NCBI GenBank assembly: GCA_001799895.1
Contig: MGUI01000007.1
Coordinates: 1-64,000, forward strand
Length of the DNA: 64,000 nt
From: Elusimicrobia bacterium GWD2_63_28
GTDB taxonomy: Bacteria > Elusimicrobiota > Elusimicrobia > Elusimicrobiales > UBA9959
Direction of reading: 5' to 3'
The position numbers were made by a program, and so were the translations under genes. Under the pieces are notes generated by a model. That model was not told the DNA's origin and did not search any database. It saw only the letters and a list, made by a program, of their open reading frames with translations. Of the stretch, positions 36,251-62,463 are shown one piece after another (position 1 is the first letter of the stretch; each line of letters opens with the position of its first letter).

Positions 36251-36282
36251 CGGAGTATATACTTCTGCTTCCTGCGGCCGGT

Positions 36283-42437: not shown

Positions 42438-42476
42438 ACAATTACGAAAACCGGGCAGGCCGCCCGGTTGCCACGC

Positions 42477-43817
42477 ATGACCAAACGCGCCCTTGCCGCC
42501 TCGTTTTTATTCTGCGCCGCCGCGGCCCTGCTGCCGGCCCCGGGCTCCTGCGCCTGGGAAAAGATCCGCTCTTCGGAAGCCCCGCTGGCCGTGACCTACT
42601 CTTCTTCCGGCGTCTACGAGATCTCCTACACCGTGGGGGACAACTGCGCCAGCCCCGGCGAGCTGTCGGCGGCGCCCTCCTCGGTCTGGTCCGGCTACCT
42701 GTCGCTGGTGCCCGCCGACGTGGTCAACCAGGGCCTGGCCGGTTTCGCCTCCACCTCCTCGCTGGCGCTGGACGGGGCGCTGGTGGGCCTGACGCCGGGG
42801 GAAAGCGTGGACCTGGTTTTCGGCGCGGAACTCTCGCAGGACTTTTCAAGCCCCGGCGTGAACGTGACCCAGGTTTACGACAATACCGCCAGCGAGGTGA
42901 ACTCGACCTGGACGGTAACGGTCGCTTATTCCGGCCAGAAGCTCGTGATAACCCCGTCGGACTCCTGGCGCAAAGGTAGCGTCTTTTCCGTGTATTTCTC
43001 CTCCTCTATCGTCGATATAAACGGGTCGCCGGTCTCTTCGGCGGCCACTGTCTATTTCTCCGTGATGATGGACTACGCGGCCGACAACACGGCCGCGTCC
43101 TTTTCCGACCGCCGCGTGAGGGTCACGATCCCCGCCAACGCCTACGCCCAGGACTTTTACGTCACGCTTTCCACCGACGCCACGCGCAGCGCGGTAACCG
43201 AAGCCAACGGGCGGCTGGCCTCCCTGCCGGGCTCCCCGGAGTTCCTTAACACCGTAAGCGTGCGCCCTTACGATTCCGCCGGGAATCTGGTGCAGCCCAA
43301 CGCCGCCTGCGTGGTGACGCTGCCCTACACCGACGCCGACGGCGACGGCCTGGTGGACGGCACGCTCAGCCGGATGAAGGTCTCCAACCTCTCCGTCTGG
43401 CACCTGGACGAGACCCGCGGCCTCTGGACCAGGCAGGCCGGGGCCACGCTGGACGCGGCGGCGCGGCAGGTCTCGCAGCCGGTCACCCATTTTTCCAATT
43501 ACGCCCTGATGGCCCTGGGCGATACCGACGTGGGCCCGGTCTACGCCTACCCGGTGCCCTTCAGGCCCGGCGCCGGGGACGCCGCCAGGTACGGCAGCTG
43601 GGCGGACCTGATCACCTTCACCAACCTGCCGGCCTACGGCAAGATCCGCATCTATACCGTCAGCGGCGCGCTGGTGCGCGAGCTGGCCGTAGCCCCTCCC
43701 TCGATGAAGTGGGACCTTAAGAACTCCGGCGGGCAGACCGTGGCCAGCGGGGTATACCTTTGGGAAGTCACCTCGGGCAAGAACCGCAAGACAGGCAAGC
43801 TCGTGGTGATAAAATAA
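42477..43817 (+). CDS. Secreted Ig-like protein with C-terminal sorting-like (FlgD/T9SS type A-like) domain
   Basis: The 446-residue protein has a signal peptide (AASFLFCAAAALLPAPGSCA). The middle holds Ig-like beta domains, including a Big_5-like stretch (residues about 130-190). The C-terminal 90 residues (VYAYPVPFRPG, KIRIYTVSGALVREL, WDLKNSGGQTVASGVYLWEV, GKLVVIK) have the order of the FlgD-Ig/type A sorting domain of type IX substrates. It is therefore a likely exported and surface-attached cargo. A TTG three codons upstream is an alternative start. The PorV-like gene begins immediately after its stop. Confidence 0.72.
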   Translation: MTKRALAASFLFCAAAALLPAPGSCAWEKIRSSEAPLAVTYSSSGVYEISYTVGDNCASPGELSAAPSSVWSGYLSLVPADVVNQGLAGFASTSSLALDGALVGLTPGESVDLVFGAELSQDFSSPGVNVTQVYDNTASEVNSTWTVTVAYSGQKLVITPSDSWRKGSVFSVYFSSSIVDINGSPVSSAATVYFSVMMDYAADNTAASFSDRRVRVTIPANAYAQDFYVTLSTDATRSAVTEANGRLASLPGSPEFLNTVSVRPYDSAGNLVQPNAACVVTLPYTDADGDGLVDGTLSRMKVSNLSVWHLDETRGLWTRQAGATLDAAARQVSQPVTHFSNYALMALGDTDVGPVYAYPVPFRPGAGDAARYGSWADLITFTNLPAYGKIRIYTVSGALVRELAVAPPSMKWDLKNSGGQTVASGVYLWEVTSGKNRKTGKLVVIK

Positions 43818-44945
43818 ATGAAGAAAGTCCTCCTCCTCCTTCTTCTTTTCGCCTGCAGCGCGCCGGCGTTCGCCGGGGCCGGCAAGGCCGGCGGGGAATT
43901 CCTGCGCATAGTGCAGAGCCCGAGGGCGGTGGGCATGGGCGAAGCCGGGGCCGGCTCCTATGGCGACCTGCTGGGCGCGCTGGCGCTGAACCCGGCGGCT
44001 CTGGCCCGCACGGCCTACAAGGAAGCTGCCTTCACCTACAATTCCTGGCTGGAGGGGATAACCTCCCAGCAGCTGGCCTACGCGCACCCCCTGGCGGGGG
44101 GCGGAGTGCTGGCCGGCTCGGTGCTGATGCTGGGCGTGCCGTCCATAGACGGCTATAACAACGCGGGCCTCCCCGCCGGACAGGTGGATGCCGGAGACCT
44201 GGCTGTGGGCGTAAGCTACGCCGCCAGGCTCGGCGGCCCCTGGCAGGACCGGCGCTCGGGCCTCTTCGCCGGCGCCACGCTGAAGTACGCCCGCGAGAAG
44301 CTGGATTCTGTGACGGCGGGCGCCCCGCTGCTCGACGCCGGGGCCCTGTGGATAACCAGGGCAAGGGGCGGCGCGCTGGCGCTGGGCGTCTCCGCGCAAT
44401 CCCTGGGCGGCGGTTTTAAGTTCGACTCCGAGACCGACCCTGCCCCGTCGGTCTTCCGGGCGGGGGCTTCCTACGTGCTGCTGGCGGCCGGCGACCCCGT
44501 GACCTTTTCGCTGGACCTCAAGAAGCCCTCCTATTCCGACGCCGCCTTCTGCGCCGGGGCCGAGTACCAGGCCTGGCGCATGCTGGCGCTGCGCGCCGGT
44601 TATATCTCCGGCGAGGACCTCGGCGGCGGCCTGCGCTTCGGAGGCGGCGTCACCATAAAGCTGCTGCAGTTCGACTATTCCCTTTCCACCTACGGCAAGT
44701 TCGGGCCGGCCCACAGGTTCAGCCTCTCCTACAAGTTCGACAAGCCCGTCGAGGTCACGCGCCACTATTCGCTGGAGCAGGAGCAGGCCAGGCAGAAAAC
44801 GGAAACGGCCCGCTCAATGATAAAAGAAAACCGCTTCTACGACGCGGTGCTGGAACTGAACGCCGCGCTGACGCTGGACCCGGGCCATAAAGAGGCGCTG
44901 GAACTTATGCGCAAGGCGCGGGCGCTGATGGAGGAGGCCAGGTAA
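43818..44945 (+). CDS. PorV/UPF0164-like outer-membrane beta-barrel protein with C-terminal TPR
   Basis: The 375-residue protein has a signal peptide (MKKVLLLLLLFACSAPAFA). The PorV family hallmark follows: FLRIVQSPRAVGMGEAGAGSYGDLLGALALNPAALAR. Repeating aromatic beta strands up to about 310 form the barrel, and a TPR unit (ENRFYDAVLELNAALTLDPGHKEAL) ends it. In type IX systems PorV shuttles cargo from the SprA pore to the attachment complex. Its neighbour carries the cargo-type CTD. The ATG directly follows the previous stop; its own stop overlaps the next gene by one base (TAATG). Confidence 0.8.
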   Translation: MKKVLLLLLLFACSAPAFAGAGKAGGEFLRIVQSPRAVGMGEAGAGSYGDLLGALALNPAALARTAYKEAAFTYNSWLEGITSQQLAYAHPLAGGGVLAGSVLMLGVPSIDGYNNAGLPAGQVDAGDLAVGVSYAARLGGPWQDRRSGLFAGATLKYAREKLDSVTAGAPLLDAGALWITRARGGALALGVSAQSLGGGFKFDSETDPAPSVFRAGASYVLLAAGDPVTFSLDLKKPSYSDAAFCAGAEYQAWRMLALRAGYISGEDLGGGLRFGGGVTIKLLQFDYSLSTYGKFGPAHRFSLSYKFDKPVEVTRHYSLEQEQARQKTETARSMIKENRFYDAVLELNAALTLDPGHKEALELMRKARALMEEAR

Positions 44946-45805
44946 TGCCGGCCCGGGCCGTCCTCGCCGCCGCGCTGCTGCTGCCTTCGGGAGCCGCCGC
45001 GGCCGAGCCCGCCAGGAAGGCGCCCGCCGCCGGGGCCGCGCAGGCGGCCAGGCCGCCGGCAGAAGGGCAGCGCGCCGAGGTGCTGCGGCTGATGGACGGC
45101 GTGCTGGCCGCTCCCGCCGACGAGGGGGCCAGGACCAGGCTCAGGCTCTCGGCCGGCAAGGCTGCAGCGGCCGAAAAGAGCGCCATAGACGCCGAGCGCG
45201 CCCGCCTGCTGGCCGCCGCCAGGCGCGACAAGGCGGAAACGGACGCCATGCTGGCGGCCAAAGCCGCGCGCACCGAGGCCTGGAAGAAGGATTTTTCAAA
45301 GGCCTGCGCGCTGGCGGAAAGAGCGGAGACGGCGCGGGAGGCTGTGGCCGCCTACGAGCGGGCGCTGGAAACCTTCCCGGTTTATTCAGACAACAAGGCC
45401 CTGCTGGCCGATTCAGGCCGGGATATCCGGGCGATCTTTTTCAAGACCATACAGAAGGCCTACCCTTATTTAGCCGAAGGCAGGGCCACGGCCGATATAA
45501 AGATGCTGGCCGCGCTGCAGTTCGCCCGGGCTTCCGACCTGACCGGGGAGTACGGCGGCAGGCAGGACCAGGGCGCGGCCGAAGCCGCCCTGAAGAAGAC
45601 GGAGAAGTTCCGGCTCCTCGAGCAGGCGCTGGCGCGGCGGTTCGAGAGCCTGGAGCAGGGGCTGGTCCTGTACGGCAGGAAGCACTGGGCCGGGGCCCTC
45701 AAGCGTTTTAACGAAGTGCTGGCCTTCGACAAGGCCAACGAGGAAGCGCTGTATTACCGGACCCTGGCCAAAGCCAGGGCCGCGGCGGCGCGCGAGAAGA
45801 GGTGA
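44945..45805 (+). CDS. Secreted helical TPR-like protein, function unknown
   Basis: The 286-residue protein has a short Ala-rich signal peptide (VLAAALLLPSGAAAAE). The mature part is Ala/Glu/Lys/Arg-rich helices with TPR-like units (AREAVAAYERALETFPVYSDNKALL, HWAGALKRFNEVLAFDKANEEALYYRTLAKA). It may act as a periplasmic scaffold. It is co-translated with the PorV-like gene (TAATG) and precedes the giant repeat gene by 4 bases, which indicates one operon for this surface assembly. Confidence 0.7.
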   Translation: MPARAVLAAALLLPSGAAAAEPARKAPAAGAAQAARPPAEGQRAEVLRLMDGVLAAPADEGARTRLRLSAGKAAAAEKSAIDAERARLLAAARRDKAETDAMLAAKAARTEAWKKDFSKACALAERAETAREAVAAYERALETFPVYSDNKALLADSGRDIRAIFFKTIQKAYPYLAEGRATADIKMLAALQFARASDLTGEYGGRQDQGAAEAALKKTEKFRLLEQALARRFESLEQGLVLYGRKHWAGALKRFNEVLAFDKANEEALYYRTLAKARAAAAREKR

Positions 45806-45809
45806 GCCT

Positions 45810-48800
45810 GTGAAACGAAGATATTTATGCGCGGCCTCGGCCGCCCTGGCCCTGCTGGCCGCGGCGGCGGGCATGGTTTCAGCCGCCTCTCCCGGCAGGC
45901 TCAGCTACCAGGGCACGCTCAGGAAGGACGGCAGGCTTTTCAGCGGCACCGTGGCGATGGAGTTCCAGATAACCGGCGCCGACGGGACGGCCGACTACTG
46001 GCATTCCAATTCCACCGACGTGGCGGTTTCCACCGGCCTGTTCCGCTACCCTCTCGGCACGCCCAACGAGGCCGCTTTCGCGGCCATCGCGTGGAAAGAT
46101 ATCACGCCGTACGTTAAGATGAAATTGGACGGGGCCTGGCTGCCCCCGGAGCCGCTCTACGCCTCCGCCTACGCGCTGCATTCCGGCACCGCCGAAGCTT
46201 CTACCGGCACTTTCACCGTGAACGGAGGAGACCTGCTCCTCTCCGGCTCCGCCGGCACCCACGGCATAATCTTCCCCGACGGCAGCGCGCAGTACCGGGC
46301 GCCCGGCTGGACGGTGTCGGCCAACGGTCTCTATACCTCCTTCTCCGGCGGCGCGGGCGTGGGCCTGCTAACCCCCGAAACGCGCCTGGACGTGCAGGCC
46401 GCGGGCGGGGACCCCTACATACAGTTCTGGCGCGATTCCTCCGGGGTCATACGCTCCTCGCTGACGGCCGCCGGGCTGCTTTACGCCGACGGCTCGCGCC
46501 TGCGCAACCTGCCCGCCGGGGCCGACAGCCTGGGCAGCCACATCGCTACCGCCACGCTGCAGATGGGAGGCTTCCCGGTAACCGGCGCGGGCGCCATAAC
46601 CTCTTCGGGGCAGTTCACCACCTACTCGAGCGCCACCGTGGCTTCGGCCGCCGGCCTGGGCGCCGCCGGCCTGGACCTGGCTCCGGAAGTCAGGCTTTCC
46701 TCTTCGGCACCGGCTTTTAACGGCGGCGTTTACATCAGCAGCAATATTTACGCCGTGGGCATAGCTTCCGCCGCGCGGTATTACGGCGACGGCTCGCCGC
46801 TGGCCGGCGTGATAACGTCTACGGCGGCGATAATCGCCTCTATCAGCGGCAATGACGCGCTGGCCGCGCACCTGGCGGGGGCGGAGACTTTTACCGGCGC
46901 CAAGACTTTCGGCAATGCGGCGCTGACCCTGACGGGCCCGAACGGCAATATCGTGAGCGGGTCTTCCATAACGACCAGCGGCGGTTTTTTCGGGAACGGC
47001 TCCGCTCTTTCCGGCGTGATAACTTCCACGGCGGCGATAGTCGCTTCGCTCGGCGGCAAAGCGGACGACACGCTGGCCGCGCACCTGGCGGGGGCGGAGA
47101 CCATAACCGGCGCCAAGACTTTCAGCGATGTGGCGCTGACCCTGACCGGCGCGAACGGCAACATCGTGAGCGGTTCTTCCATAACTACCAGCGGCGGTTT
47201 CTTCGGGGACGGCTCCGGGCTGGCCGGAGTTATAACTTCCACGGCCGCGATAGTGACTTCGCTTAACGGCAAAGCCGAGGATACGCTGGCCGCGCATTTG
47301 GCCGGGGCGGAGACTTTCACCGGCGCCAAGATCATAGACAACGTGGCTTTCACGCTGACCGGCCCGAACGGCAATATCGTCAGCAATTCCTCCATTACGA
47401 CCACGGGCGGTTTTTTCGGCGACGGTTCCGGGCTTACCGGCCTGCCCGCCGGGAATGTTGTGGATACACTGGCGGATACGCTGGCGGTAAGCGGCGACGC
47501 CGGGAACCGCTATATCAACAACCTGAGCAGCGCCGCCATCGGCCGCGCTGAAGGCGCCGCCGCGCTGGACTTGCAGGCCGCGGCCCTCGACGAGCAGGCG
47601 CAGCTCTGGCGCGCCTCGGACGGTACGATAGTGGCTTCCATGAGCGCGGCGGGGTATTTCCAAGCCGCTAAATTTATCGGCGACGGCTCGGGCCTTGCGG
47701 CCCTGGACGCCGCCGGTATTTCAGTCGGGACGCTGGCGGACGAGAGGCTTTCTGCGAATGTCGGGCTGCTCGCTTCCAGCCAGGTCTTCAGCGGCGCTAA
47801 CATCTTTACCTCCACTGCGGCTTTCACCGCGGCGGACCCCGTCCTGCCCGGACTTTACGTTTCCTCCGGGCTGGTGGTGGCCGCCGGCGGCGTCGGCATA
47901 GGCGTCTCCGCGCCGCAGCAGAAGCTGGAGGTCCTCGGCGGCATAAAGCTGGCCGATACTCTCATAGATTCTCCCGGCACCCTGAAGTACGACGGAGCTT
48001 TTCAGGGTTATAACGGGACCGCCTGGGTGACGCTGAACGGCAGTTATTCTTTGGACACTTCCACGGCGCTTTGGGGAATCAATGAAGCCGTTACCCCGAA
48101 CACGGTCTATACGGTGGGCGCTTCTTCTAACGTGGCCATAGGCACCATGAACGCCGGGGCCAGCAAGCTGCGCGTGACAGGCAACGGCAGCGGCTCCGGG
48201 ACTAACGCCTTCCTGGCCGAAAGCCTTGCCGGCACTCTGTTTACCATCCGCGACGATGGCAATGTAGGCGTGGGGCCGCTCGATCCGGCAACGCGGCTGG
48301 ACTTGCAGGCCGCGGGCGGGGACGCGCACGCGCAGATCTGGCGCGACTCCGGCGGCACGGTAGTGGCCTCTATGAGCGCCGCGGGCTATTTCCAGGCCGC
48401 CGCCTTCATCGGCGACGGCTCTCAGCTTTCGGGGCTGCCTTCCGGCAACACCATAGATACGCTGGCCGCCACGCTGGGCGCCGGCAGCGACGCCGGCGGA
48501 ACGGGGATAGTTAACGCCGGGGCCGTGGCCATCGGTGTCATAAACGCCGGCGACAATAAACTGCTGGTAAGGGGGATAGGCAACACCTCGGCCACTAACG
48601 CTTTAAGGGCGGAGGACATCGGTTCGCTGCCGCTGCTGGTAGTGCAGAACGGGGGTAATATCGGGCTCGGTGTGGACAGTCCGGCTACCAGGCTGGAACT
48701 GAAGGCCGTCGCGGACGACGCGCACTCGCAGATCTGGCGTAACTCCGGAGACGTGGTGGTCGCCTCGATGAGCGCGGCCGGCTACCTGCAGGCTGTAAAA

Positions 48801-50876
48801 TTCATCGGCGACGGCTCCGAATTGTCAGGAATTTCAGGCGGCAATGTGGTGGATACGCTGGCCGATACTCTGGCTTTGAGCGGGGACGCGGGTAACCGCT
48901 ACATTAACAATCTCAGCAGCGCGGCCATCGGCCGCGCGGCGGGTGAGGCGGCGCTGGACTTGCAGGCCGCGGCGCTCGACGAGCAGGCGCAGCTCTGGCG
49001 CGCTTCTGGCGGCACTATCGTAGCGTCCATGAGCGCGGCCGGCTACCTGCAGGCTGTAAAATTCATCGGCGACGGCTCCCAGCTTTCGGGCATCTCGGGC
49101 GGGGGCGCTGGGGACAGCCTGGGCGTCCATATCGCCACGCAGACCCTGAACCTGGCCGGCAACGCCATAGTGGGCGTCTCCAGCATCACGGTCAGCACCA
49201 TCTCGAGCGAAGGCGACAGCGTGTTCTTTAGCGCTTCCGTGGCTGTCGACGGCGGCCTGGCTGCTTCCGGAGACCTGACGGCCGGCAGCGGGGTCCAGAC
49301 ATCCACGATCAGCGCCTCCGGCTTCATCAGCCTGGCCAACCTGGCGTCCGCGCCGGCGGGCGCTGGTTACGGCGCCATTTATTATAACCCGGCGGCTTTT
49401 GACAATCAGGGCGCCCTCTATCTGAACCTTAACGGGGCCTTCGTTCCCATAGCCACCGGCACAGTAGCCGGGGGCGCGGGCATGACTGGCGTAATTTCCG
49501 ACGCCGACCAGTTCAGCGGCGACGGCGCCGGAGTGCCGACCACGCTTACGCTGAAGGCCTCCAGCGTGACGCTGCAGGGCAACGCCTTCAACGGGGCAGG
49601 GCAATTGGTGCTGCTCGGGACCGACGGGAAACTGCCCGCCGTGGACGGCTCGCTGCTTACCGGCATCTCGGGCGGGGGCGCGGGAGACAGCCTGGGCGTC
49701 CATATCGCCACGCAGACCCTGAACCTGGCCGGCAACTGGCTGCTGAACGCCTCGACCATAACCGTGCTGCCGGGCGAGCCTGGCATAGCGTTCTCGACCT
49801 CGCTTTATGTGGGCGGCAATGTGCTGGCCACAGGCGGGGCGCTGTTCGGGGCCGGGCCGGTGGTGATAGGTAATACTATGCCGTTGGCCAGCCTGCATAT
49901 TTCTTCCGTAGCTGGCTACGCGGGGGACCTGGTGGCGGTTTCCACCGGCATGTCGCTGCCCGTCATACGCATGACCGGCGCCGGGGAGATCTACGCCAAT
50001 TACTTCTACGGCGACGGCTCGGGTCTGACAGGAGTTTCCGCGGGAGGCTTTCCCAGCCCCGTCAACGAAGACCTGAATATGAACGGTAAGAGCGTCTACG
50101 GCGCCAACGAGGTGGAGGTGAGCTCGCGTCTGTCGGTGGGCAACAGCGCCAGCATCGCTTCGCCTGTGGCCGCGCTGGTTATGGAAATGTTCGCGGACGC
50201 GGATATCAGCGAGGACCCGATGTACCCTAACGAAGGGCTGGGGGTTATGGCGCTGCTGGACCTTGCGGCGCCAAGGGCGGGGGCGCAGAAGATAATTGGC
50301 GGAGATTTTATGGCGGGGACCGGAATGGACGGCGGCAATACCAACAACTTCCCCTTCGCCGCCGGCCTCCGCGCCGGCGCCCTGGCCCAGTCCGGCGGAA
50401 CTATCGGCGCCGCTTACGGCTTGTTCGCGCAGAACAACCATTCCGCCGGGAGCGTGACGCGCAATTACGGCGTCTACGTACAGAACAAGCAGTCCGCCGG
50501 GACCGCGAACCAGTACAACTACGGGCTTTTCCTGGACGTGCCTGATTCCAGCGGGACCATAACGGAGAATTACGGCCTGTACATAAAAGACCAGTCCACC
50601 TTCGGCCTGATGGCGCACAATATCTGGTCGGCGGGTCCGGCGTCGATCAACTATTTCGAAGGAACCGTGCAGGCGGAGAATGTCTGGGCGACAAACGCCC
50701 AGGTGACTTCGAAGTTCATCCTGCCGTCCAAGACCCTGGCGGCTCTCCAGGCCCTTGTTCCCGCGTCTAAAGGGGAAACCTATTTCTGCGAAACCTGCGT
50801 TCCGCCGAAGATAGTGGTCTCTACGGGCACGGCGGCCGGCAATTTCGCCGACGCGGTCGGCGGGACTTTCGAGTAG
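45810..50876 (+). CDS. Giant repetitive surface protein, tail-fibre-like GDGSGL repeats
   Basis: The 1688-residue protein starts at GTG with AGAGGTGAG upstream and a signal peptide (KRRYLCAASAALALLAAAAGMVSA). Its first 150 residues look like a beta domain (GRLSYQGTLRKDGRLFSG). The body repeats the tail-fibre-like turn F-x-G-D-G-S-x-L-x-G at least ten times, with DSLGxHIATxTL and LWRxSxGTIVASMSAAGY units. Three exact 71-residue units occur at 46860-47498 and a longer block is duplicated. The C terminus holds tandem NYGxYxxN turns and a Cys pair (YFCETC). It looks like an adhesive fibre or filament; no catalytic motif. It is the last gene of the surface operon. Confidence 0.78.
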   Translation: MKRRYLCAASAALALLAAAAGMVSAASPGRLSYQGTLRKDGRLFSGTVAMEFQITGADGTADYWHSNSTDVAVSTGLFRYPLGTPNEAAFAAIAWKDITPYVKMKLDGAWLPPEPLYASAYALHSGTAEASTGTFTVNGGDLLLSGSAGTHGIIFPDGSAQYRAPGWTVSANGLYTSFSGGAGVGLLTPETRLDVQAAGGDPYIQFWRDSSGVIRSSLTAAGLLYADGSRLRNLPAGADSLGSHIATATLQMGGFPVTGAGAITSSGQFTTYSSATVASAAGLGAAGLDLAPEVRLSSSAPAFNGGVYISSNIYAVGIASAARYYGDGSPLAGVITSTAAIIASISGNDALAAHLAGAETFTGAKTFGNAALTLTGPNGNIVSGSSITTSGGFFGNGSALSGVITSTAAIVASLGGKADDTLAAHLAGAETITGAKTFSDVALTLTGANGNIVSGSSITTSGGFFGDGSGLAGVITSTAAIVTSLNGKAEDTLAAHLAGAETFTGAKIIDNVAFTLTGPNGNIVSNSSITTTGGFFGDGSGLTGLPAGNVVDTLADTLAVSGDAGNRYINNLSSAAIGRAEGAAALDLQAAALDEQAQLWRASDGTIVASMSAAGYFQAAKFIGDGSGLAALDAAGISVGTLADERLSANVGLLASSQVFSGANIFTSTAAFTAADPVLPGLYVSSGLVVAAGGVGIGVSAPQQKLEVLGGIKLADTLIDSPGTLKYDGAFQGYNGTAWVTLNGSYSLDTSTALWGINEAVTPNTVYTVGASSNVAIGTMNAGASKLRVTGNGSGSGTNAFLAESLAGTLFTIRDDGNVGVGPLDPATRLDLQAAGGDAHAQIWRDSGGTVVASMSAAGYFQAAAFIGDGSQLSGLPSGNTIDTLAATLGAGSDAGGTGIVNAGAVAIGVINAGDNKLLVRGIGNTSATNALRAEDIGSLPLLVVQNGGNIGLGVDSPATRLELKAVADDAHSQIWRNSGDVVVASMSAAGYLQAVKFIGDGSELSGISGGNVVDTLADTLALSGDAGNRYINNLSSAAIGRAAGEAALDLQAAALDEQAQLWRASGGTIVASMSAAGYLQAVKFIGDGSQLSGISGGGAGDSLGVHIATQTLNLAGNAIVGVSSITVSTISSEGDSVFFSASVAVDGGLAASGDLTAGSGVQTSTISASGFISLANLASAPAGAGYGAIYYNPAAFDNQGALYLNLNGAFVPIATGTVAGGAGMTGVISDADQFSGDGAGVPTTLTLKASSVTLQGNAFNGAGQLVLLGTDGKLPAVDGSLLTGISGGGAGDSLGVHIATQTLNLAGNWLLNASTITVLPGEPGIAFSTSLYVGGNVLATGGALFGAGPVVIGNTMPLASLHISSVAGYAGDLVAVSTGMSLPVIRMTGAGEIYANYFYGDGSGLTGVSAGGFPSPVNEDLNMNGKSVYGANEVEVSSRLSVGNSASIASPVAALVMEMFADADISEDPMYPNEGLGVMALLDLAAPRAGAQKIIGGDFMAGTGMDGGNTNNFPFAAGLRAGALAQSGGTIGAAYGLFAQNNHSAGSVTRNYGVYVQNKQSAGTANQYNYGLFLDVPDSSGTITENYGLYIKDQSTFGLMAHNIWSAGPASINYFEGTVQAENVWATNAQVTSKFILPSKTLAALQALVPASKGETYFCETCVPPKIVVSTGTAAGNFADAVGGTFE
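46860..47498 (+). repeat. Three tandem 213-base repeats inside the giant repeat gene
   Basis: Units begin at 46860, 47073 and 47286 (CTGGCCGCGCA...), exactly 213 bases (71 codons) apart. The units are very similar and in frame. They encode LAAHLAGAETFTGAK ... NIVSGSSITTSGGFFGDGSGL. Confidence 0.85.
47450..47690 (+). repeat. Long direct repeat, first copy
   Basis: Encodes NVVDTLADTLAVSGDAGNRYINN ... LWRASDGTIVASMSAAGY. A near-identical second copy is at 48840-49080, 1.4 kb downstream in the same gene. Confidence 0.7.
48840..49080 (+). repeat. Long direct repeat, second copy
   Basis: Second copy of the 47450-47690 block with few changes (LALSGDAGNRYINN, AAGEAALDLQ). Recombination between the copies would delete about 1.4 kb in frame. 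Confidence 0.7.
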
Positions 50877-50891
50877 GCGGCCGGGGGCGAT

Positions 50892-50926
50892 AAAAAAGGC
50901 CGCGGGCAGCCGCGGCCTTTTTGTTT
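50892..50926. terminator. Bidirectional terminator
   Basis: AAAAAAGGCCGCGG-GCAG-CCGCGGCCTTTTTG between the convergent giant repeat gene and the RNA methyltransferase gene. Confidence 0.85.
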
Positions 50927-50936
50927 TACCGCGGGC

Positions 50937-52217: not shown

Positions 52218-52250
52218 AATAAAAGCCTTATTCCGGACGCAGATTTTTAA

Positions 52251-52261
52251 TATACTACAAT
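52251..52261 (+). promoter_or_regulatory. -10 region for the GT-C-like gene
   Basis: Overlapping TATACT and TACAAT boxes end 4-9 bases before the ATG at 52265, so transcription probably starts at or just past it; the ATG at 52280 could then be the true start. Confidence 0.35.
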
Positions 52262-52264
52262 CTT

Positions 52265-53461: not shown

Positions 53462-53478
53462 AAGGAAGGTTTGGAACT

Positions 53479-54420: not shown

Positions 54421-54468
54421 CCGGCCCCAGGCGGGCGGCAGGCCTGCGCTGGAACTGAGGCGGAGGGT

Positions 54469-54503
54469 TGCGGCGGGGTGTAACTCCGCCGCGGCCCTTT
54501 TTG
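54469..54503 (+). terminator. Rho-independent terminator after the Cache gene
   Basis: GCGGCGGGG-TGTAA-CTCCGCCGC followed by GGCCC and five T; 48 bases after the stop codon. Confidence 0.75.
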
Positions 54504-54510
54504 CTATAAT
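54502..54510 (+). promoter_or_regulatory. Extended -10 for the GH13 gene
   Basis: TGCTATAAT directly after the terminator; extended -10 with a consensus TATAAT, no -35 needed. Leader of about 50 bases to the GTG at 54567. Confidence 0.5.
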
Positions 54511-54566
54511 TAGGACTGCGGTTCCGGGGGTTTCCTTAAATATTTATCGCAAGGCAGGGAGGGAAA

Positions 54567-56063
54567 GTGCTTCGTTCGAATCCTCATTTGATAGAAATCA
54601 ATGCCAGGCTGTGGCTTAAGCAGCTGCGGGCCAAGTATTCCCTGCCCGAGATGACGCTTTCCTCGGTTCCGGACGAGGAGTGGCAGGAGCTGCGCCACCT
54701 CGGCTTCGACATCATCTGGCTGGTCGGCGTCTGGGAACCCAGCCCGGAATCCGAGCGCATAGCCCGCGAGGACAAAGCCCTGGTCGAGGAGCTGAGAAAT
54801 CTTCCCCCGGGCTTCGGTCCCGAGGCCGTGGGCTCTTCCCCCTATTCAGTGCACTGGTACAGGCTGAACTCCGACCTGGGTTTTGAGTGGGAGCTGAAGG
54901 CCCTGAAGGAAAAGCTGAACTCGATGGGCATGAAGCTGATGGTGGACCTGGTCTCCAATCACACGGCCAAGGACAACCCGTACATCAAAGAGGCCCCGGA
55001 TTGCTTTATCAACGGCTCGGAAGAGGATTTCAAGGCCCACCCCGACTGGTTCTTCGAGCTGCCCGACGGCGAGAAGAAGCGCTACATCGCCTACGGGCGG
55101 GACCCGAATTTCCCGGCGTGGACTGACAGCGCCCAGCTGAACTATTTCAACCCCGCCACGCGCGACCGGATGCTCTCGGTACTGCTGCGCATAGCGGACA
55201 TGGCCGACGGCGTGCGCTGCGACATGGTGATGCTCACGCTCAACGAGATCCACGAGGGCACCTGGGGCTGGCTGCTGAACCGCGGCGGCTACAAGCGCCC
55301 CCAGGAAGAGTTCTGGGAAAGCGCCATAAAGACCATCAAAGAGAAGCACCCGCAGTTCACCTTCCTGGCCGAAGTTTACTGGGGCCTGGAATGGCGCGTG
55401 CAGCAGATAGGCTTCGACTATACCTACGACAAGGGCACCTACGACCGGCTCCGCTTCCAGGGGGCGCAGGAGGTGCGCGGCCACCTGCGCGCGGAGAAGC
55501 TTTACCAGAAGCGCTCCGCGCGCTTCATCGACAACCACGACGAGCAGCCTTCACTGGCCGCCTTCGGCCGCCAGAAGGCCCTGGCCGCCGGCGTGGTGGT
55601 TTCCACGATCAAGGGCCTGCGCTTCTACAACGACAACCAGGTGGACGGCGTGAAGGTGCGCCCGCCGCTGCAGCTCAAGGAGCTCTACGAGCGGGTCCCG
55701 GACCTGGAGATCAAGAAGTTTTACGCGAAGCTGCTCAAGATCACCGACCATCCCGCCTTCCACGGGGGGGAATGGGCGCTGCTCGACGTGAAGCAGTGCG
55801 ACGAGGAGAACCGGACCAACAGCAATATCCTGGCCTGGTCCTGGGCCCAGCGCCGCACGCTCAAGGTGGTGGTGGTGAACTACTCCGCGGAAACTTCCTG
55901 CGGCGTGGTGAACGTCTCCATCAAGAGCGAGGGCGAAACCACGGCCATCTTCGAGGAGCTGTCCGACCGCTTCTTCTCGTTCAAGGCCGGCGAACTGGCC
56001 GGCGGCCTGCGCCTGCAGGAGATGCCCCCCTACTCCTCCTACATCTTCGACGTGGAATTCTAA
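54567..56063 (+). CDS. Cytoplasmic GH13 alpha-amylase-family glycosidase
   Basis: The 498-residue protein has the four GH13 regions: I DLVSNHT (His132), II GVRCDMVML (nucleophile Asp219), III FLAEVYW (acid/base Glu269) and IV FIDNHDEQ (Asp325). The Arg before the nucleophile is present. No signal peptide, so it acts on internal alpha-glucans or maltodextrins (glycogen-like). Start GTG with GGGAGGGA upstream. The region II reads GVRCDMVM rather than GxRxDxAKH, seen in several less-studied subfamilies, so hydrolase versus transferase cannot be decided. It ends in a terminator at 56079-56112. Confidence 0.85.
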   Translation: MLRSNPHLIEINARLWLKQLRAKYSLPEMTLSSVPDEEWQELRHLGFDIIWLVGVWEPSPESERIAREDKALVEELRNLPPGFGPEAVGSSPYSVHWYRLNSDLGFEWELKALKEKLNSMGMKLMVDLVSNHTAKDNPYIKEAPDCFINGSEEDFKAHPDWFFELPDGEKKRYIAYGRDPNFPAWTDSAQLNYFNPATRDRMLSVLLRIADMADGVRCDMVMLTLNEIHEGTWGWLLNRGGYKRPQEEFWESAIKTIKEKHPQFTFLAEVYWGLEWRVQQIGFDYTYDKGTYDRLRFQGAQEVRGHLRAEKLYQKRSARFIDNHDEQPSLAAFGRQKALAAGVVVSTIKGLRFYNDNQVDGVKVRPPLQLKELYERVPDLEIKKFYAKLLKITDHPAFHGGEWALLDVKQCDEENRTNSNILAWSWAQRRTLKVVVVNYSAETSCGVVNVSIKSEGETTAIFEELSDRFFSFKAGELAGGLRLQEMPPYSSYIFDVEF

Positions 56064-56078
56064 CCTCCCCTGTCGAAC

Positions 56079-56112
56079 CAAAAGGCCGGCGCTCCCGCCG
56101 GCCTTTTTCTTT
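56079..56112. terminator. Bidirectional terminator
   Basis: AAAAGGCCGGCG-CTCC-CGCCGGCCTTTTT between the convergent GH13 and comF genes. Confidence 0.85.
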
Positions 56113-56176
56113 AATTCGTTTGCCCCCAGGCGGCCCTCCGCCTTAGCTTCTCGAGGATCTTTAGTGCGGTTGATCG

Positions 56177-56902
56177 TTAAGGTTCGCGGGCGAGGGTGTA
56201 GGCGGATACGGACTTGGCGCCGGCGCGCTTGAGTTCGGAGGCCAGCTCGTCGAGGGTGGCGAGCGTGGTGGCCACGTCGTCGATGAGCAGGATCTTCCTG
56301 CCCTTCACCAGCTCGGGCCGGGCCGCGCGGAAGGCGCCGGCCATGTTGGTCCGGCGGTCGGCCTTGGAGAGAGTGGTCTGGCTGGGCGTGTCCCGCACGC
56401 GCTCGGCCGCGCCCTCCAGGTGGAACAGGTTGCGCCGCGCCGCCACGGCGGCGGCCAGCAGCTCGGCCTGGTTGAAGCCGCGCTCCCGGCGCTTGGCGGG
56501 GTGCAACGGCACGGCCACCGCGAAATTGTAGGCGGCCAGCTCGGGGTAGCGGTCCAGCGCGGCGGCCATCTGCGCGGCAAGCGGGAGCGCCAGGTCGTCG
56601 CGTCCCCTGTACTTGAAGGCGTGTACCACAGAGCGCAGTTCGGGGTTGAAGACGAAAGCCGAGCGCGCCAGGTCCAGCGCCGCCGGCCCCGCCCCGCGGC
56701 AGTCGTAGCAGGCCGCCCCGCCGTCCAGCGGCAGGCCGCAGAGTTTGCAGTGCAGCTCGGGGAGCGGCTCCAGGCGCGCGCTGCAGCCCGGGCAGAGCGG
56801 GCGCTCCTCCTGGTAATGCAGGTCCAGGCCGCAATGCGCGCAGGTGCGCGGCAGCAGCGCGTTCAGCAGCCATTTTCCGGCCTTTATAAGCGCAGGTTTC
56901 AC
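56177..56902 (-). CDS. comF: ComF-family phosphoribosyltransferase-like protein
   Basis: The 241-residue protein has two zinc-finger CxxC pairs (CAHCG...CPGC, CKLCG...CYDC) near the N terminus and a type I PRT domain with the PRPP loop ILLIDDVATTLATLDEL. ComF proteins work in DNA uptake and transformation in competent bacteria. No other com gene is in view, so natural competence is only suggested. It sits 27 bases downstream of the SprA-like stop on the same strand; both may share a transcript. Confidence 0.9.
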   Translation of the reverse strand: MKPALIKAGKWLLNALLPRTCAHCGLDLHYQEERPLCPGCSARLEPLPELHCKLCGLPLDGGAACYDCRGAGPAALDLARSAFVFNPELRSVVHAFKYRGRDDLALPLAAQMAAALDRYPELAAYNFAVAVPLHPAKRRERGFNQAELLAAAVAARRNLFHLEGAAERVRDTPSQTTLSKADRRTNMAGAFRAARPELVKGRKILLIDDVATTLATLDELASELKRAGAKSVSAYTLAREP

Positions 56903-56929
56903 TAGCCCCCTCCGAAAAACAAACTCCCC

Positions 56930-59900
56930 TTAGAACTGGAACGTCAGCGTGCTGCCCGCCTGGTAGGACACGTATTCCTCCTGTTTGAGGTACTTGTGCC
57001 AGAAGCGCTGCAGCCCGGCGTTGAAGGTGAGGCGCAGGTTCTTGGCCGCCTCGTAGTCCGCGCTGGAGTTCAGCGAGAACAGCCGGTTGTTGTCGGCTAT
57101 CGTGATCGGCGAAGACTTTATGGCGTAGCTGAGCGTCGTGGTCCAGACTATGCGGTTGGTGAAGACTATGGCCTGCTTCATGAACGGCAGCTTGAGGCCC
57201 TTCGGCAGCTGGAAGTCCGACTTGATGAGCAGGCTGGGCGTTATGGTCCTGGTGTTGGCCGTGACGATGCCCAGCGCGCCCTTGGTCTTGTCCGCCGAGA
57301 AATCGGCCTTGGGGGTAAAGCGGAACTTGCGGAAGTCAAAGGTGCCCTGCAGCGTGGCGTCGTCGTGGCGCGTCTCCTGCGTGATCTGGTCCACGCGCAG
57401 GTCCTTCTTGTCGGAGAGGCGCAGGTTGTAGCTGAAGGCCGTGTCGATGAGGCTCAGCAGCTTGAAGCGGAGGTCCATGCCGTAGGTGCCGGAGGTGTCC
57501 AGCGAGATGTCCTTGGCCTCGTTGGTGTTTCGCGAATACTTCAGGTTTACCGTGGCCCCCTGGGCCCAGCGGCGCGCGCGCAGCAGCGTCTCCAGCTGCG
57601 ACATCGAAAGGATCATGTCCGGGAAGGTGCGGTTCACGCTCCTGGAGATCGTGCCGGTGACCTCGGAGCGCTGCACCGAGTTGGTGAAGTTGTTGGTGAG
57701 CGACAGCGTGCCCAGCGGCGCCGAGCGGCCCTTGAAGCCGAAGCCTTCGAACGGCTGCCAGCGCTGGGTCGAACTCACGGTGTCGCGCAGAGTCACGGAG
57801 TTGCGCTGGGCGAAGGGGCTGGCGGGCTTGAGCGAGTCCCGCAGCCAGAGGCGCGAGCGGGTGTTGTATTCCTTCTCTACGTTGGCCCACGCGTCGCCGT
57901 CCTGGATCTGGTAGTTGGAAGAAAGCACCAGCGAGCGCAGCAGGCGGTTGCGCGGCACCAGGTCGTTCATGTTCAGCGTCAGGCTGACGCCGCCCTGGGC
58001 CGTGCGGTTGACGGTCTTGATCTGGCCGGCGGTGAAGACCTGCGAGGACTGGGCCACCGTGACAGTGGCGGTATTGAGGTTGTTGCTCTCGATGGTGGTC
58101 ACGTTATAATTGATCGAGGGGTTCAGCCAGCGGGCGAAGAGCAGGTTGGAATTGAGGTCCACCGTCTGCTGCAGGGACTTGTTGTAGCGCTCGGAACGCA
58201 GCGGGTCCGAGATGGGCGCCCGCTCCTCCCTGGCGGTCTGCAGCGAGTAGCCCGGGTTGAACGAGGAGCCGTTCCACGGCACGAAGGTGAGCTTGGCCGC
58301 GTAGGCGTCGGTGCGCTCTTCGGTGTCATAAAGCCCGGCGAGGCTGAGCAGGCGGCTGGAATCGTAGCTGACCTTGCTGCGCCCCTGCGAGTAGTTAAGG
58401 TTCATCGAGCGCGGGACCACCGGCAGGGTGCCGGGCACGGAGTAGGTGAGGTTCGCGGCGTAGAGGTCCCTGTCGTCCCTGCGGCTGAGCATGCTGTAAT
58501 CGATAATGCCCTTCGTGTAGTTCAGGCCCACCTTGGGCAGCGCCGAGATGTTGAGGCTGCCGGAGGCCGTGCCGTCGAATTTCTTGACGCGGCCCTGCTG
58601 CAGCGAATTGACCAGGTTGTTGGCGCCGGTGACCAGCGTGTTGGGCGTGACGGTTATCTGGCGCGCCGCGGTGACGTTCACCGGGAAGAAAGAGATGCGC
58701 GTCAGGTTGAAGTAGCCGCTCTGGGATTCGTTGTCCTGGTTGGCGATAGCCGTCACGGGCGTCTGGAAGCTGCGGTCCACGAAGCGGTGCTTGCCGCCGA
58801 AGCTGAACCAGCCGGGCACCTCGAAGGCGCCTTCCACCTTGCGCGCGTTGCCGACGCGCATCAGCGGCTCGGACAGGTGGAGTTCGTTGAAGTAGACGGT
58901 GCCGCTGTGGGCGCTGCCGTCGGTGGCTTCCACGCCGATCACGAACTGCGGCACCTGCTGCAGGCTGGGGGTGCCGCGGGAAGAGATCTCCACGCCGGAG
59001 GTCTCGGGCGACCAGACGTCGGGGATCTTGTCTCCCGTGATGTCGACCTGCCGCAGGGATATGAGCCGCCACCCGGTGAAGTCGAGCGGGACCTTTACCT
59101 TGAAGTAGTTGTTCGCGTCGCCGGCCTTCAGGTAGAAGGCGGCGCCCGCGTCCGCGCCGCTTTCGCTCTTCACCAGGAAGCGCACCTTCTCGTGCTGCGA
59201 GATATCCAGCGCCGTGGTGAATTTTCTGTAGACGTAGACGGTGGAGGTGGAATAGATATTGTCGTAGTCCAGGGCCAGGGTCTGCTCCGTTATCGAGTTG
59301 GAGTTGCTCTTCTGCTTCTGCTCCGAGACGGAGCCGTAGAGGTTGTTGAAGACGATGGTCGCGTCGCCGCCGGCCTCGTAAATGGGCTGGTAGCCCGGGT
59401 TGTCCTGGTTGTTGACGCCCATGGCCTGGATGGCGCCGGCCGTGGAAGACTGGACGGACCAGGTATTGCCTACCGCCGAGATGCGGGCGAACATCAGCGT
59501 GCCGGCAGTCGCCCCGCCGGTCCTCTTGCGCAGGGAGATGCGCACCTGCTTGACCGCGTTCCACTTGTAGGTATCGGTGGAGGCGATGGCCAGCGGCAGG
59601 TAGAGGGTGTGCCAGCCGTCGAAGTTTATGTGGTTCTTCTCGTTGCCCGGAGACAGGGTGCTGTCGTTGTTGTCGATGAACTTGGAGCCGGTGACGTAGC
59701 CGAAGCTGCCGCCGGTGAAGTCCTGCGCGTCCAGGCGGCCGTTCTTGTTGAGGTCTTCGGAGTCCAGCCTGCCGTTGTCCCCGCCGTAGCGCCGGGTATT
59801 GCCGGTGCCCGGATCGTAGAGCCAGCCTATGTCTTCCGCGCTGGAGACCTGCTCGTCGCAGTTGAGGTCTTCGCTCTTGGGCGCGCCGTTGAGCACCAGG

Positions 59901-62299
59901 CCCGAGGCGCAGGAGAAGCTCTGGCCTCCGGAGTTGTCGGCGTCTTCGCTGACCTGGCCCAGGTGGATGTTGAACTCGGGGCCGTCCAGGCCGCCCGGCT
60001 TCTGGCCGTATACCACCAGCTCCAGCACGTTCTTCTGCGAGAAGTCCAGGCCGGTGGTGGAGAGGGGGTAGACGATGGAAATTTCCTGGGAGGTCGTGAA
60101 ATCGTACCTTACCGCCAGCACCTGCTGCGTCCCTTCAGAGGAGGCGGCCGGGTTTATGTCGCGGGTCTTGACGTTCTCGTTGTACCAGTCCAGCGCCAGC
60201 GGGTCCGCCGGCCCCTGCAGCGGGTTGGCGGCGATGAACCAGTAATTCTTGTCCATCGAAGGGGAATCGTCCTGCTTCACGCCCTCCATGTTGTCTATCA
60301 GGGCGTAATCGTTCAGGTTGGGGTTCAGCCGGCTCTGGGCCGCCTCGGCCCCGAGGCTGGCCTTCAGGCCGAAGAGGTTCAGGCCCTTAAGCTGCGCGTC
60401 GCCCTCGTAGACCAGCATGCTGTTGGTGAGGTCGGTCACGTTGGGGACGGTGTTGGACTTGATGCCGCCCTGGTAGAGCAGCGTGGAGCCCAGCGTGAAC
60501 TTGTTGCCGAAATCGTAGGAGACGCGGCCGCCCACCAGCGACTGGTTGCCCAGGCCGCCGAACGGCGAAACCTCGTAGGTGATCTCTATCTTAGACTCCT
60601 GGCTGACGCGCTCCGGGTAGTAGAACGTGATGAAGCCGGAGTCGTAGTCTATGAAGTATTCCTCGTTGCGGCCGAGCTTTTTTCCGTCGACGCGCACCAC
60701 TTCCGACTGCAGCACGATGTTCGGCTCCAGCATGAAGGTCTTGAAGCGGAAAGAATATTCCACGCGGATTATGCGCTTGGAGACCGGGGCGGCCGAATAG
60801 ATCTGGGGATCCTCCACGCTGTTGTTGTCCGGCGAGGCGAACGGGTTCTTAAGGTGCAGGATGCCCTGCTCGAAGTCCACCTCTATGGTGTCCGGGTACT
60901 TAACCAGGGGGTTGCCGTCCGTCGGGTTGGCCCCGGGGATGCTTACCTGGGTGCGGTTAAGGTCCTGCACCTTGAGGATGAAGTTGCCGCTGCCGTTGTC
61001 GCGCACGATGTTGCTCTGGCCGATGGAATAATAGGTCTTGAGCTCCCGCCGGTGGGAAACCTGCAGGTCGGATACCGCGGAGACGGAGGAGAGAGCGATG
61101 TCGCTGGGCGTCTTGATTATCGCCGGTACGACCAGCGCCGCCGCGGTGTCCAGGGTGGAGGCGGAGCTGTTCTGCGAAAGGCTGGTCCCTCCGATGTTCT
61201 GGAAATCCACTATCACCACGTCCTGCGGGTTGAGCGTGCGGTTAAAGGTTACGAGGCCCTTGGCGTAGTCCATCACGTAGTCTATGCCGGGGCTCATCAG
61301 CTGGAAACGGCCGGTATACGAGGAAGACTGGACCTCCAGGTCCTTGCCGGTCATGTCGAAAATGGTGACGTTGTCCACCTGCGCCTGGGTCTGCTGGTCG
61401 ATGTAGATGCGCTCGCTGCCCGACTTTATGGGCAGGCGGTTGCAGGCCGCGGTGTTGCAGCCGAAGGTCAGGTCGTAATACTTGCGGCGCAGGTAGTTGG
61501 TGTCCATGATGTCCGCGCCCTGGAACTGCGTGTTGCCGGTGAACTGCCGGGTCTTGGTCTGGCCCTTCGTGCGGGAGCCGACGAAGGTGAACTTCAGCCG
61601 CTGGGTCTTGAGGTCGGCCCTGATGCCGAAGAGCTGCTTATTGTAGGAGACGAACTCGGTGGCGGGCAGGGACAGGTCTATGTCGCCGAACGAGACGTTC
61701 TGCACCACTTCGTTCGGGTCGCCGGTGTAGATCACGGAGATGTCCTGCTTGTCCTGCTTGGTGTCGTCGTAGTCGACGTTGACGGTGATCTTCTCGCCTA
61801 CCTTGCCCTGCATGCGCACCTGCATCTGCTGGGTGATCTCGAACAGGCCCAGGGAGCGCGCGCGCGTGACGTTGGTCTGCTCGTTTATGAATTTCTTGCC
61901 GCTGTAGTTGAGGGCTATCACCTTGCGGCCGGTGACGGAGAGGGCTGTGCCGGATTCGCGGAATTCCACCTGGGGCTCGAGGGCCGCCGGGGCCTCGGTG
62001 GACGCCTGGACGGCCGGCAGCGGGACCAGTTCCTCGCGCCTGAAGCGCCCCGTCTCCACCGCTTCGCGCGCGGAATTCCAGGAGTCTTCGCTGTAGGAGA
62101 AGGGCATGTCGCCGGAGAGGCCGGGGCTGTCGGCGGCGGTGGAGATTTCGGCGCCCGACAGCACCTTGGAGGGGTCCTGCCGGTCCAGCAGCAGGAAGCG
62201 GCCCCCGGCGGGCGAGGGGGCGGCGAAATCGTCGGCGCGCGCGCCGGCGGCGCAGGCCAGGAGCAGCAGCAGGTAGAGTGGTGTCGCCTTTAAATTCAT
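56930..62299 (-). CDS. SprA-like giant outer-membrane protein (type IX translocon pore-like)
   Basis: The 1789-residue protein has a signal peptide (MNLKATPLYLLLLLACAAGARA). Several SprA blocks are visible: KITVNVDYDDTKQDKQDISVIYTGDPNEVVQNVSFGDIDLSLP, YNKQLFGIRADLKTQRLKFTF, a segment with NMEGVKQDDSPSMDKNYW that corresponds to the DDFEGS region, many jelly-roll and beta-strand stretches, and a final Phe (TLTFQF) as in outer-membrane proteins. SprA of Bacteroidota (about 2400 residues) is the 36-strand pore through which CTD proteins leave the cell; this one is shorter. The start at 62299 is chosen for the signal peptide (an open frame runs 38 codons further). Divergent to lptF. Confidence 0.78.
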   Translation of the reverse strand: MNLKATPLYLLLLLACAAGARADDFAAPSPAGGRFLLLDRQDPSKVLSGAEISTAADSPGLSGDMPFSYSEDSWNSAREAVETGRFRREELVPLPAVQASTEAPAALEPQVEFRESGTALSVTGRKVIALNYSGKKFINEQTNVTRARSLGLFEITQQMQVRMQGKVGEKITVNVDYDDTKQDKQDISVIYTGDPNEVVQNVSFGDIDLSLPATEFVSYNKQLFGIRADLKTQRLKFTFVGSRTKGQTKTRQFTGNTQFQGADIMDTNYLRRKYYDLTFGCNTAACNRLPIKSGSERIYIDQQTQAQVDNVTIFDMTGKDLEVQSSSYTGRFQLMSPGIDYVMDYAKGLVTFNRTLNPQDVVIVDFQNIGGTSLSQNSSASTLDTAAALVVPAIIKTPSDIALSSVSAVSDLQVSHRRELKTYYSIGQSNIVRDNGSGNFILKVQDLNRTQVSIPGANPTDGNPLVKYPDTIEVDFEQGILHLKNPFASPDNNSVEDPQIYSAAPVSKRIIRVEYSFRFKTFMLEPNIVLQSEVVRVDGKKLGRNEEYFIDYDSGFITFYYPERVSQESKIEITYEVSPFGGLGNQSLVGGRVSYDFGNKFTLGSTLLYQGGIKSNTVPNVTDLTNSMLVYEGDAQLKGLNLFGLKASLGAEAAQSRLNPNLNDYALIDNMEGVKQDDSPSMDKNYWFIAANPLQGPADPLALDWYNENVKTRDINPAASSEGTQQVLAVRYDFTTSQEISIVYPLSTTGLDFSQKNVLELVVYGQKPGGLDGPEFNIHLGQVSEDADNSGGQSFSCASGLVLNGAPKSEDLNCDEQVSSAEDIGWLYDPGTGNTRRYGGDNGRLDSEDLNKNGRLDAQDFTGGSFGYVTGSKFIDNNDSTLSPGNEKNHINFDGWHTLYLPLAIASTDTYKWNAVKQVRISLRKRTGGATAGTLMFARISAVGNTWSVQSSTAGAIQAMGVNNQDNPGYQPIYEAGGDATIVFNNLYGSVSEQKQKSNSNSITEQTLALDYDNIYSTSTVYVYRKFTTALDISQHEKVRFLVKSESGADAGAAFYLKAGDANNYFKVKVPLDFTGWRLISLRQVDITGDKIPDVWSPETSGVEISSRGTPSLQQVPQFVIGVEATDGSAHSGTVYFNELHLSEPLMRVGNARKVEGAFEVPGWFSFGGKHRFVDRSFQTPVTAIANQDNESQSGYFNLTRISFFPVNVTAARQITVTPNTLVTGANNLVNSLQQGRVKKFDGTASGSLNISALPKVGLNYTKGIIDYSMLSRRDDRDLYAANLTYSVPGTLPVVPRSMNLNYSQGRSKVSYDSSRLLSLAGLYDTEERTDAYAAKLTFVPWNGSSFNPGYSLQTAREERAPISDPLRSERYNKSLQQTVDLNSNLLFARWLNPSINYNVTTIESNNLNTATVTVAQSSQVFTAGQIKTVNRTAQGGVSLTLNMNDLVPRNRLLRSLVLSSNYQIQDGDAWANVEKEYNTRSRLWLRDSLKPASPFAQRNSVTLRDTVSSTQRWQPFEGFGFKGRSAPLGTLSLTNNFTNSVQRSEVTGTISRSVNRTFPDMILSMSQLETLLRARRWAQGATVNLKYSRNTNEAKDISLDTSGTYGMDLRFKLLSLIDTAFSYNLRLSDKKDLRVDQITQETRHDDATLQGTFDFRKFRFTPKADFSADKTKGALGIVTANTRTITPSLLIKSDFQLPKGLKLPFMKQAIVFTNRIVWTTTLSYAIKSSPITIADNNRLFSLNSSADYEAAKNLRLTFNAGLQRFWHKYLKQEEYVSYQAGSTLTFQF

Positions 62300-62463
62300 C
62301 TTGTCGCGGCCCCGGCCGGGATCTTCCCGCCGGGCCGCAGCCATTTTGCCGAACAAAAAAACAGCCGCCCCGCCTTGGCCGGGCAAGCAAAAACTGCCCG
62401 ACTTCGCCTGCAATTACCGGCGATTCGGGCTATGCCCCCTCCTCGTTACACGGGGCCGCAATA

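Follow-up and report, generated by a model that had tools for sequence, protein, structure and literature searches.

A proposed type IX-like outer-membrane export pathway with paired cargo and PorV-family shuttle genes across the Elusimicrobiota

Introduction

Might a phylum outside the accepted range of the type IX secretion system (T9SS) export proteins by a route of that kind? The question is raised by a 64,000-nucleotide stretch of DNA (the window; positions 1 to 64,000 of contig MGUI01000007.1, assembly GCA_001799895.1) from Elusimicrobia bacterium GWD2_63_28, in which a first-pass annotation had placed three T9SS-like genes within 20 kb: one for a SprA-like pore, one for a PorV-like shuttle and, directly before the latter, one for a cargo protein with a type A-like C-terminal domain (CTD). 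The window is part of contig 7 of a 3.29 Mb assembly in 74 contigs, and the source genome is a member of the Elusimicrobiota. T9SS genes are regarded as confined to Bacteroidota and a few relatives within the Fibrobacterota-Chlorobiota-Bacteroidota (FCB) group (PMC11285876), and we found no report of a T9SS in Elusimicrobiota in the open-access literature. The analysis presented here leads us to propose, with a probability of roughly 0.7, that the Elusimicrobiota possess a type 9-like outer-membrane export pathway in which cargoes with uncleaved type A-like CTDs each have a PorV partner of their own as shuttle and anchor.

Results

The window encodes a divergent SprA homologue

All three genes are present at the positions first assigned to them. 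The SprA-like open reading frame (ORF) opens with a TTG at 62413 (56930-62413); a plausible signal peptide follows the ATG at 62299, and the call beginning there (56930-62299, 1789 aa) is therefore the better one. Its product matches the NCBIfam profile TIGR04189 (Sov/SprA) with E=1.2e-39 and 135.5 bits, as do 11 of 11 diverse SprA orthologues. Fold models were built as two overlapping AlphaFold fragments with an alignment of 46-47 SprA relatives, giving a pLDDT (predicted local distance difference test score) of 77.6 for residues 22-1180 and 85.6 for residues 600-1789. For each half the four top-ranked PDB entries are 8gl8, 8gl6, 6h3j and 6h3i, all of them SprA, with E-values of 1e-32 to 4e-46, and the next-best match lies at about 1e-5. 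A manual count of long strands across the two overlapping fragment models, which is no measured barrel, gives some 36 candidate membrane strands; this agrees with SprA and with the 36-strand barrel that the first-pass annotation had named as a check. Judged by profile and predicted fold, the large protein is a genuine SprA/Sov homologue. It had been suggested that this shorter SprA may be a minimal form; shorter it is, at 1789 aa against 1988-2290 resolved residues in the solved SprA chains, but the fold is retained and nothing indicates a minimal form.

The candidate shuttle scores 128.6 bits against NF033709 (PorV/PorQ family, cut-off 90) and E=8.4e-8 against PDB 6h3i_F (PorV); it is closer to PorQ (84.7 bits) than to PorV (46.2 bits), and the narrower PorV and PorQ equivalog cut-offs are not reached. 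Against TIGR04183 (type A CTD, cut-off 23) the cargo scores 23.6 bits, and 25.8 bits in the whole-genome search; the CTD end of PorZ is matched by its C-terminus with E=6e-12. Pfam searches with the three window genes return weak hints only. The identification of pore, shuttle and type A-like signal made from the window is thus upheld in all three parts.

Cargo and shuttle genes form pairs that are inherited together

The CTD-PorV pair in the window, where the cargo stop abuts the PorV start with a gap of 0, belongs to a set of about 17-20 such pairs in the source genome, which encodes approximately 25 CTD proteins and 23 PorV/PorQ-family proteins. Whole-genome profile searches give 19 CTD matches in the source genome, 14-23 in its congeners and 0-2 in small relatives, the corresponding PorV-family numbers being 27, 25-38 and 3-5. 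Immediately before most PorV genes stands one whose product ends in ...W-[DN]-G...ASGVY...K..VI[KR], usually at a gap of -4 to +30 bases. When whole-genome matches to both curated families were counted in six congeneric genomes, requiring a PorV gene of the same strand no more than 750 bases 3', 76 of 114 CTD genes had a PorV-family gene directly 3', where about 0.33 is expected by chance, and there were almost no other arrangements among the 114. One conserved locus is reversed, with PorV followed by the CTD protein (contig C40 in the source genome). The pairing extends to other families: with a profile derived almost wholly from CTDs of one genus, a CTD was found immediately upstream of 29 of 40 PorV genes belonging to families f13, f17, f19, f24 and f25 (E 1e-13 to 1e-24).

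Covariation was measured on CTDs collected by a loose regular expression, from which 10 false cases had been removed by eye beforehand. In each of the three genomes analysed, the distances among CTDs and those among PorVs are correlated (Mantel r=0.65, 0.56 and 0.87; p=2e-4 each, the permutation floor), and the correlation persists without close paralogues (r=0.53, 0.35 and 0.38; p<=0.009). Orthologous PorV genes retain their CTD partner in 12/12, 15/16 and 12/12 cases. The covariation shows that CTD and PorV are inherited as a unit; it is compatible with specific recognition between the two, though no proof of binding.

The CTDs as a family are nearest to those of known T9SS substrates. TIGR04183 matches at or over its cut-off in the window cargo and in most of the CTD genes listed for the source genome, and a profile of 57 CTDs retrieves from PDB, in order, PorZ (5m11, E=7e-11), PorU (6za2, E=8e-11), FlgD, the SprA-trapped CTD of RemZ (5e-4) and gingipain CTDs. 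PorZ and PorU, the nearest solved relatives, are substrates of the Bacteroidota T9SS whose CTDs stay uncleaved, bound to PorQ and PorV respectively (PMC10202324). Among the 57, Pfam finds CHU_C in 40, FlgD_ig in 35 and Por_Secre_tail in 30, and the single cargo with a match to TIGR04131 scores below the cut-off of that family. The attached proteins are varied: among them are Kelch/Fn3 proteins, propellers of the PQQ and SBBP types and one protein resembling thermolysin. A home-made signal-peptide test, too permissive to serve as evidence, was positive for 40 of 46 paired cargos and for 368 of 777 of all long ORFs. CTD-bearing open frames reach 16,135 aa; those of 8,490-16,135 aa (G000:C10, locus L135; G000:C52, locus L127; G018:C35; G022:C1; G009:C41), some of them followed by a PorV with TPRs, are predicted to be very long surface proteins.

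The shuttles are uniform in family and varied in form. All 23 PorV-like proteins of the source genome match NF033709, many above cut-off, and 21 match PorQ, with TIGR03519 (PorP/SprF) appearing as a weak second match in only two. Some bear C-terminal TPR, OmpA, LysM, HEAT or CsgG parts, and the OmpA part fused to PorV also matches the PorE profile (E=6e-20). In another family PorV is fused to a CTD (L249:557-1852, minus strand). We note two further architectures: a PorV with two CTD/FlgD-like domains and an apparent OmpA domain, again in another family (L246:2-1795, minus strand), and, in three genomes (L138, L168, L197), a PorV that ends in a CsgG/TolB-like part and follows a protein of 174-230 aa with no CTD, membrane-anchored in L138.

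The SprA homologue is distributed throughout the phylum

Among 245 Elusimicrobiota genomes of at least 85% completeness, 231 encode SprA, representing 25 families and in nearly all cases as a single copy. Thirteen of the 14 SprA-negative genomes belong to family f13 and most of these are small. In g50, a reduced genus of this family, the eight genomes with no SprA match at all are also devoid of PorV, whereas all six that have SprA carry 1-5 PorV genes; of those with a SprA remnant, G052 and G126 have no PorV and G157 has one weak match. The suggestion of T9SS-like parts in a lineage not known for them is thereby borne out, not as a stray 20 kb locus but as a phylum-wide set with dozens of paired genes. 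The first-pass annotation had named a failing SprA profile, or a genome with no other T9SS part, as outcomes that would speak against it; the profile matches, and further T9SS parts are found in the genome.

The T9SS is a textbook possession of Bacteroidota and the Elusimicrobiota are a phylum based on metagenome-assembled genomes, which invites an explanation by contamination or by recent horizontal transfer from Bacteroidota. This is refuted by the distribution, and we give it virtually no credence: SprA is present in single copy with conserved neighbours in those 231 genomes, its best 80 relatives among 84,980 species genomes all lie on Elusimicrobia or Elusimicrobiota contigs or in bacterial bins among them, and in structural alignment it is only 12-14% identical to SprA of Bacteroidota.

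A second explanation dispenses with secretion, the PorV proteins being FadL-like transporters of small molecules, the CTDs FlgD-type immunoglobulin (Ig) domains, and SprA a protein with an unrelated envelope role. It can call on FlgD_ig and Toluene_X/FadL among the weak matches, on the position of sprA, divergent beside an LptF/LptG gene in a sprA-comF and lptF/G neighbourhood conserved across many families, and on the retention of SprA in reduced genomes with few CTDs. We nevertheless consider it improbable in view of the strict order, tight spacing and covariation of the CTD and PorV genes, the ranking of T9SS PorZ and PorU ahead of FlgD as structural relatives of the CTDs, the specificity of the SprA fold match and the way SprA and PorV are missing together in genus g50.

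Motor, ring and sortase genes are not detected

Searches for the remaining T9SS parts were conducted in 10 genomes, several nearly complete. The best GldL/PorL match is 18.9 bits (cut-off 68.3) and the best GldM/PorM match 13.1 bits (cut-off 180); GldN/PorN gives no match, GldK/PorK only matches of the FGE-type sulfatase domain at no more than 67 bits (cut-off 350), and matches to the PorU C25 peptidase (NF033707) are confined to the CTD or the nearby C-terminal Ig region, with none in the peptidase part. The 14 control genomes, none of them known to hold motor or ring genes, gave no match above cut-off to any T9SS core part and therefore provide no direct measure of how sensitive these negative searches are. 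The motor genes first remarked on as missing from the window are therefore undetected genome-wide, in all 10 genomes. Because motor, ring and PorU were searched for and not found, the system should not be filed as a complete T9SS; it is T9SS-like.

Two groups of weak matches were considered and rejected. Those to GldK are generic FGE-domain proteins. In G000, G018 and G010 the only matches to GldL lie immediately upstream of a TolQ-TolR-TolA-like operon, and the one on contig C23 falls in a soluble coiled-coil protein rather than in a membrane protein with two helices. At these loci (L111/L208 on G000:C23; L112 on G018:C29) the coiled-coil protein and a methylthioribose-1-phosphate isomerase-like gene stand before the operon.

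It is unlikely, in our estimate, that the T9SS is in fact complete, either with motor and ring diverged beyond the reach of the profiles or with the cell's own TolQ/TolR/TolA (ExbBD-TonB) motor taking their place by way of the PorV pairs. GldLM and ExbBD have a common motor architecture, the source genome and five congeners have 4-6 MotA/ExbB-family genes, in three of four small genomes there is a single such gene, lying in a TolQ-TolR-TolA-like operon, and the weak GldL matches adjoin that operon. Yet those matches are the coiled-coil protein just described, GldM and GldN do not rise above background, and GldK gives FGE-type matches only. The MotA/ExbB-family proteins inspected belong to TolQ-TolR-TolA-like or MotA-like sets, TolQR serves a separate housekeeping role, and G030, a genome 98% complete, encodes SprA and PorV yet yields no match to the ExbB family.

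Peptidases of the clostripain family (C11, clan CD) are encoded in the window (187-1497) and at L142:3597-4844, there directly upstream of an orphan PorV with no CTD, and a protein similar to this family precedes a PorV at L187 (G022). A role in cargo processing is conceivable, because PorU is likewise a clan CD peptidase.

Other genes of the window

Features of the locus are collected in Table 1. The TPR protein and the long repetitive protein that follow the window pair are probable operon mates, and their membership in the system is uncertain; repetitive predicted secreted proteins with no CTD, such as the latter, adjoin several other CTD-PorV pairs (L124, L127, L141). The gene directly downstream of sprA was rejected as a T9SS partner, its sequence resembling a ComF-type phosphoribosyltransferase. 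Elsewhere in the window (19000-37857, minus strand) lie two giant multidomain genes of 2309 and 2196 aa with ketoacyl synthases, 4 acyl carrier proteins (ACPs), KR, four FabA-like dehydratase stretches and acyltransferases, beside genes for a FabD-insert/NMO protein, an AMP-ligase and an ACP-synthase III, in what resembles a cluster for a Pfa-type synthase of polyunsaturated fatty acids.

Table 1. Coordinates of the sprA and CTD-PorV loci and their neighbours in the window.
Feature	Position	Strand	Basis
SprA/Sov-like outer-membrane translocon, 1789 aa	56930..62299	-	TIGR04189 and AlphaFold fold match
PorV/PorQ-family predicted shuttle of the window cargo, with C-terminal TPR-like extension, 375 aa	43818..44945	+	NF033709; PDB 6h3i_F
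Window cargo: signal peptide, Big_5-like domain, type A-like CTD; ATG at 42477	42468..43817	+	
CTD of the window cargo	43530..43814	+	TIGR04183 match at 43611-43808
TPR-repeat neighbour on the same strand, 286 aa	44945..45805	+	Pfam TPR_11 E=8e-4; overlaps PorV stop
Long repetitive predicted secreted protein without CTD, 1688 aa	45810..50876	+	Chlorovi_GP_rpt E=2e-9
ComF-like gene directly downstream of sprA	56177-56902	-	Sequence
LptF/LptG gene, divergent from sprA	62481-63593	+	

Discussion

Alongside the homology, fold, gene pairing, covariation, phylum-wide distribution and lack of detectable motor genes described above, we infer secretion, docking and surface anchoring, and propose the following course for them. 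A cargo with a signal peptide would cross the inner membrane by Sec, and its Ig-like CTD would be received by the one SprA-type barrel in the outer membrane. Judging from the solved SprA-PorV-CTD complex, to which the parts are homologous, the CTD would dock on loops of the cargo's own PorV/PorQ barrel, the product of the next gene, and the cargo-PorV pair would then exit SprA sideways. Because no PorU sortase is detectable, the CTD probably stays uncleaved, and PorV would act as a stoichiometric, single-use shuttle and thereafter as surface anchor; a few PorVs may tie their cargo to peptidoglycan through a fused OmpA or LysM domain. Energy could come from a general TolQRA/ExbBD-type motor, or there may be no dedicated motor at all.

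The scheme joins the geometry of type A export, solved for SprA-PorV-CTD (PMC10994853), to the cognate pairing of type B, in which CTD-SprF pairs are produced in stoichiometric amounts (PMC12618676). Such a mixture, of type A-like CTDs and PorV-type barrels with the one-cargo-one-shuttle pairing of type B/SprF, would be so far undescribed. With the Bacteroidota translocon (SprA/Sov, PorV and type A CTD; 6h3i, 8gl6, 8gl8) the Elusimicrobiota have in common the SprA fold, a PorV-family barrel and predicted secreted proteins that end in an Ig-like, type A-like CTD. They differ in having no detectable GldK/L/M/N or PorU, a shorter SprA and some 23 PorV-family genes, where in Bacteroidota essentially one PorV serves all type A cargo (PMC12618676). 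With the type B CTD and PorP-SprF pairs and PorE of Flavobacterium johnsoniae and Porphyromonas gingivalis they share a shuttle gene directly downstream of each cargo, one per cargo, and a peptidoglycan link through an OmpA-type domain; here, however, the shuttles are of the PorV/PorQ family, OmpA or LysM is fused to the shuttle itself, and the CTDs are for the most part type A/FlgD-like. In P. gingivalis, the attachment complex of PorU-PorV and PorZ-PorQ offers the closest CTDs by sequence, also uncleaved on PorV/PorQ barrels, but there only two pairs serve the sortase, whereas here about 20 pairs carry varied cargo and no PorU peptidase is detected. Finally, many TIGR04183 CTD proteins with no accompanying system, and no motor found, are known outside Bacteroidota, as in Poribacteria (PMC3909097); unlike these, the Elusimicrobiota have a SprA translocon and paired PorVs. 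We accordingly rate the system as T9SS-like by translocon, shuttle and signal; judged by motor, ring and sortase it falls outside the T9SS.

Several observations weigh against the export pathway proposed here. The SprA score of 135.5 bits is short of the TIGR04189 equivalog cut-off of 200, Pfam SprA_N (PF14349) has no match anywhere in the genome, the SprA region of the window included, and neither phmmer nor a profile search finds a relative among PDB sequences; the kinship of SprA is established through NCBIfam and fold comparison only. The window pair lies 12 kb from sprA, and sprA and the PorV genes are not in one operon. The proximity of FlgD-type Ig domains to the CTD family (E=3e-7) means that a structural role is possible for some CTDs, and small genomes of family f2 keep SprA with only 0-2 recognised CTDs. 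The joint absence of SprA and PorV in g50 is supportive only, because related genomes are not independent and because six SprA-negative genomes outside the genus (G046, G118, G133, G143, G149, G212), several of them fragmented, keep 1-25 PorVs. The proposal is computational throughout, with contact between SprA and the PorVs a prediction. Type 9 export in Bacteroidota, moreover, needs a proton-driven motor, which the searches here did not detect.

That last point admits a more radical version of the proposed pathway, one that we offer tentatively and think rather less likely than not to be correct: a type 9 translocon free of any motor, in which each cargo has one single-use PorV and the insertion and lateral release of each fresh pair drives export. 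Such a translocon could be the ancestral form, to which Bacteroidota would later have added motor, ring and sortase.

The Elusimicrobiota thus lie outside the accepted T9SS range, yet nearly all of their genomes encode the translocon, their cognate CTD-PorV pairs number in the dozens and no motor is detectable. The purpose of the motor and the evolution of the T9SS both become open to test, and a predicted surface proteome, very long proteins included, is provided for an almost uncultured phylum.
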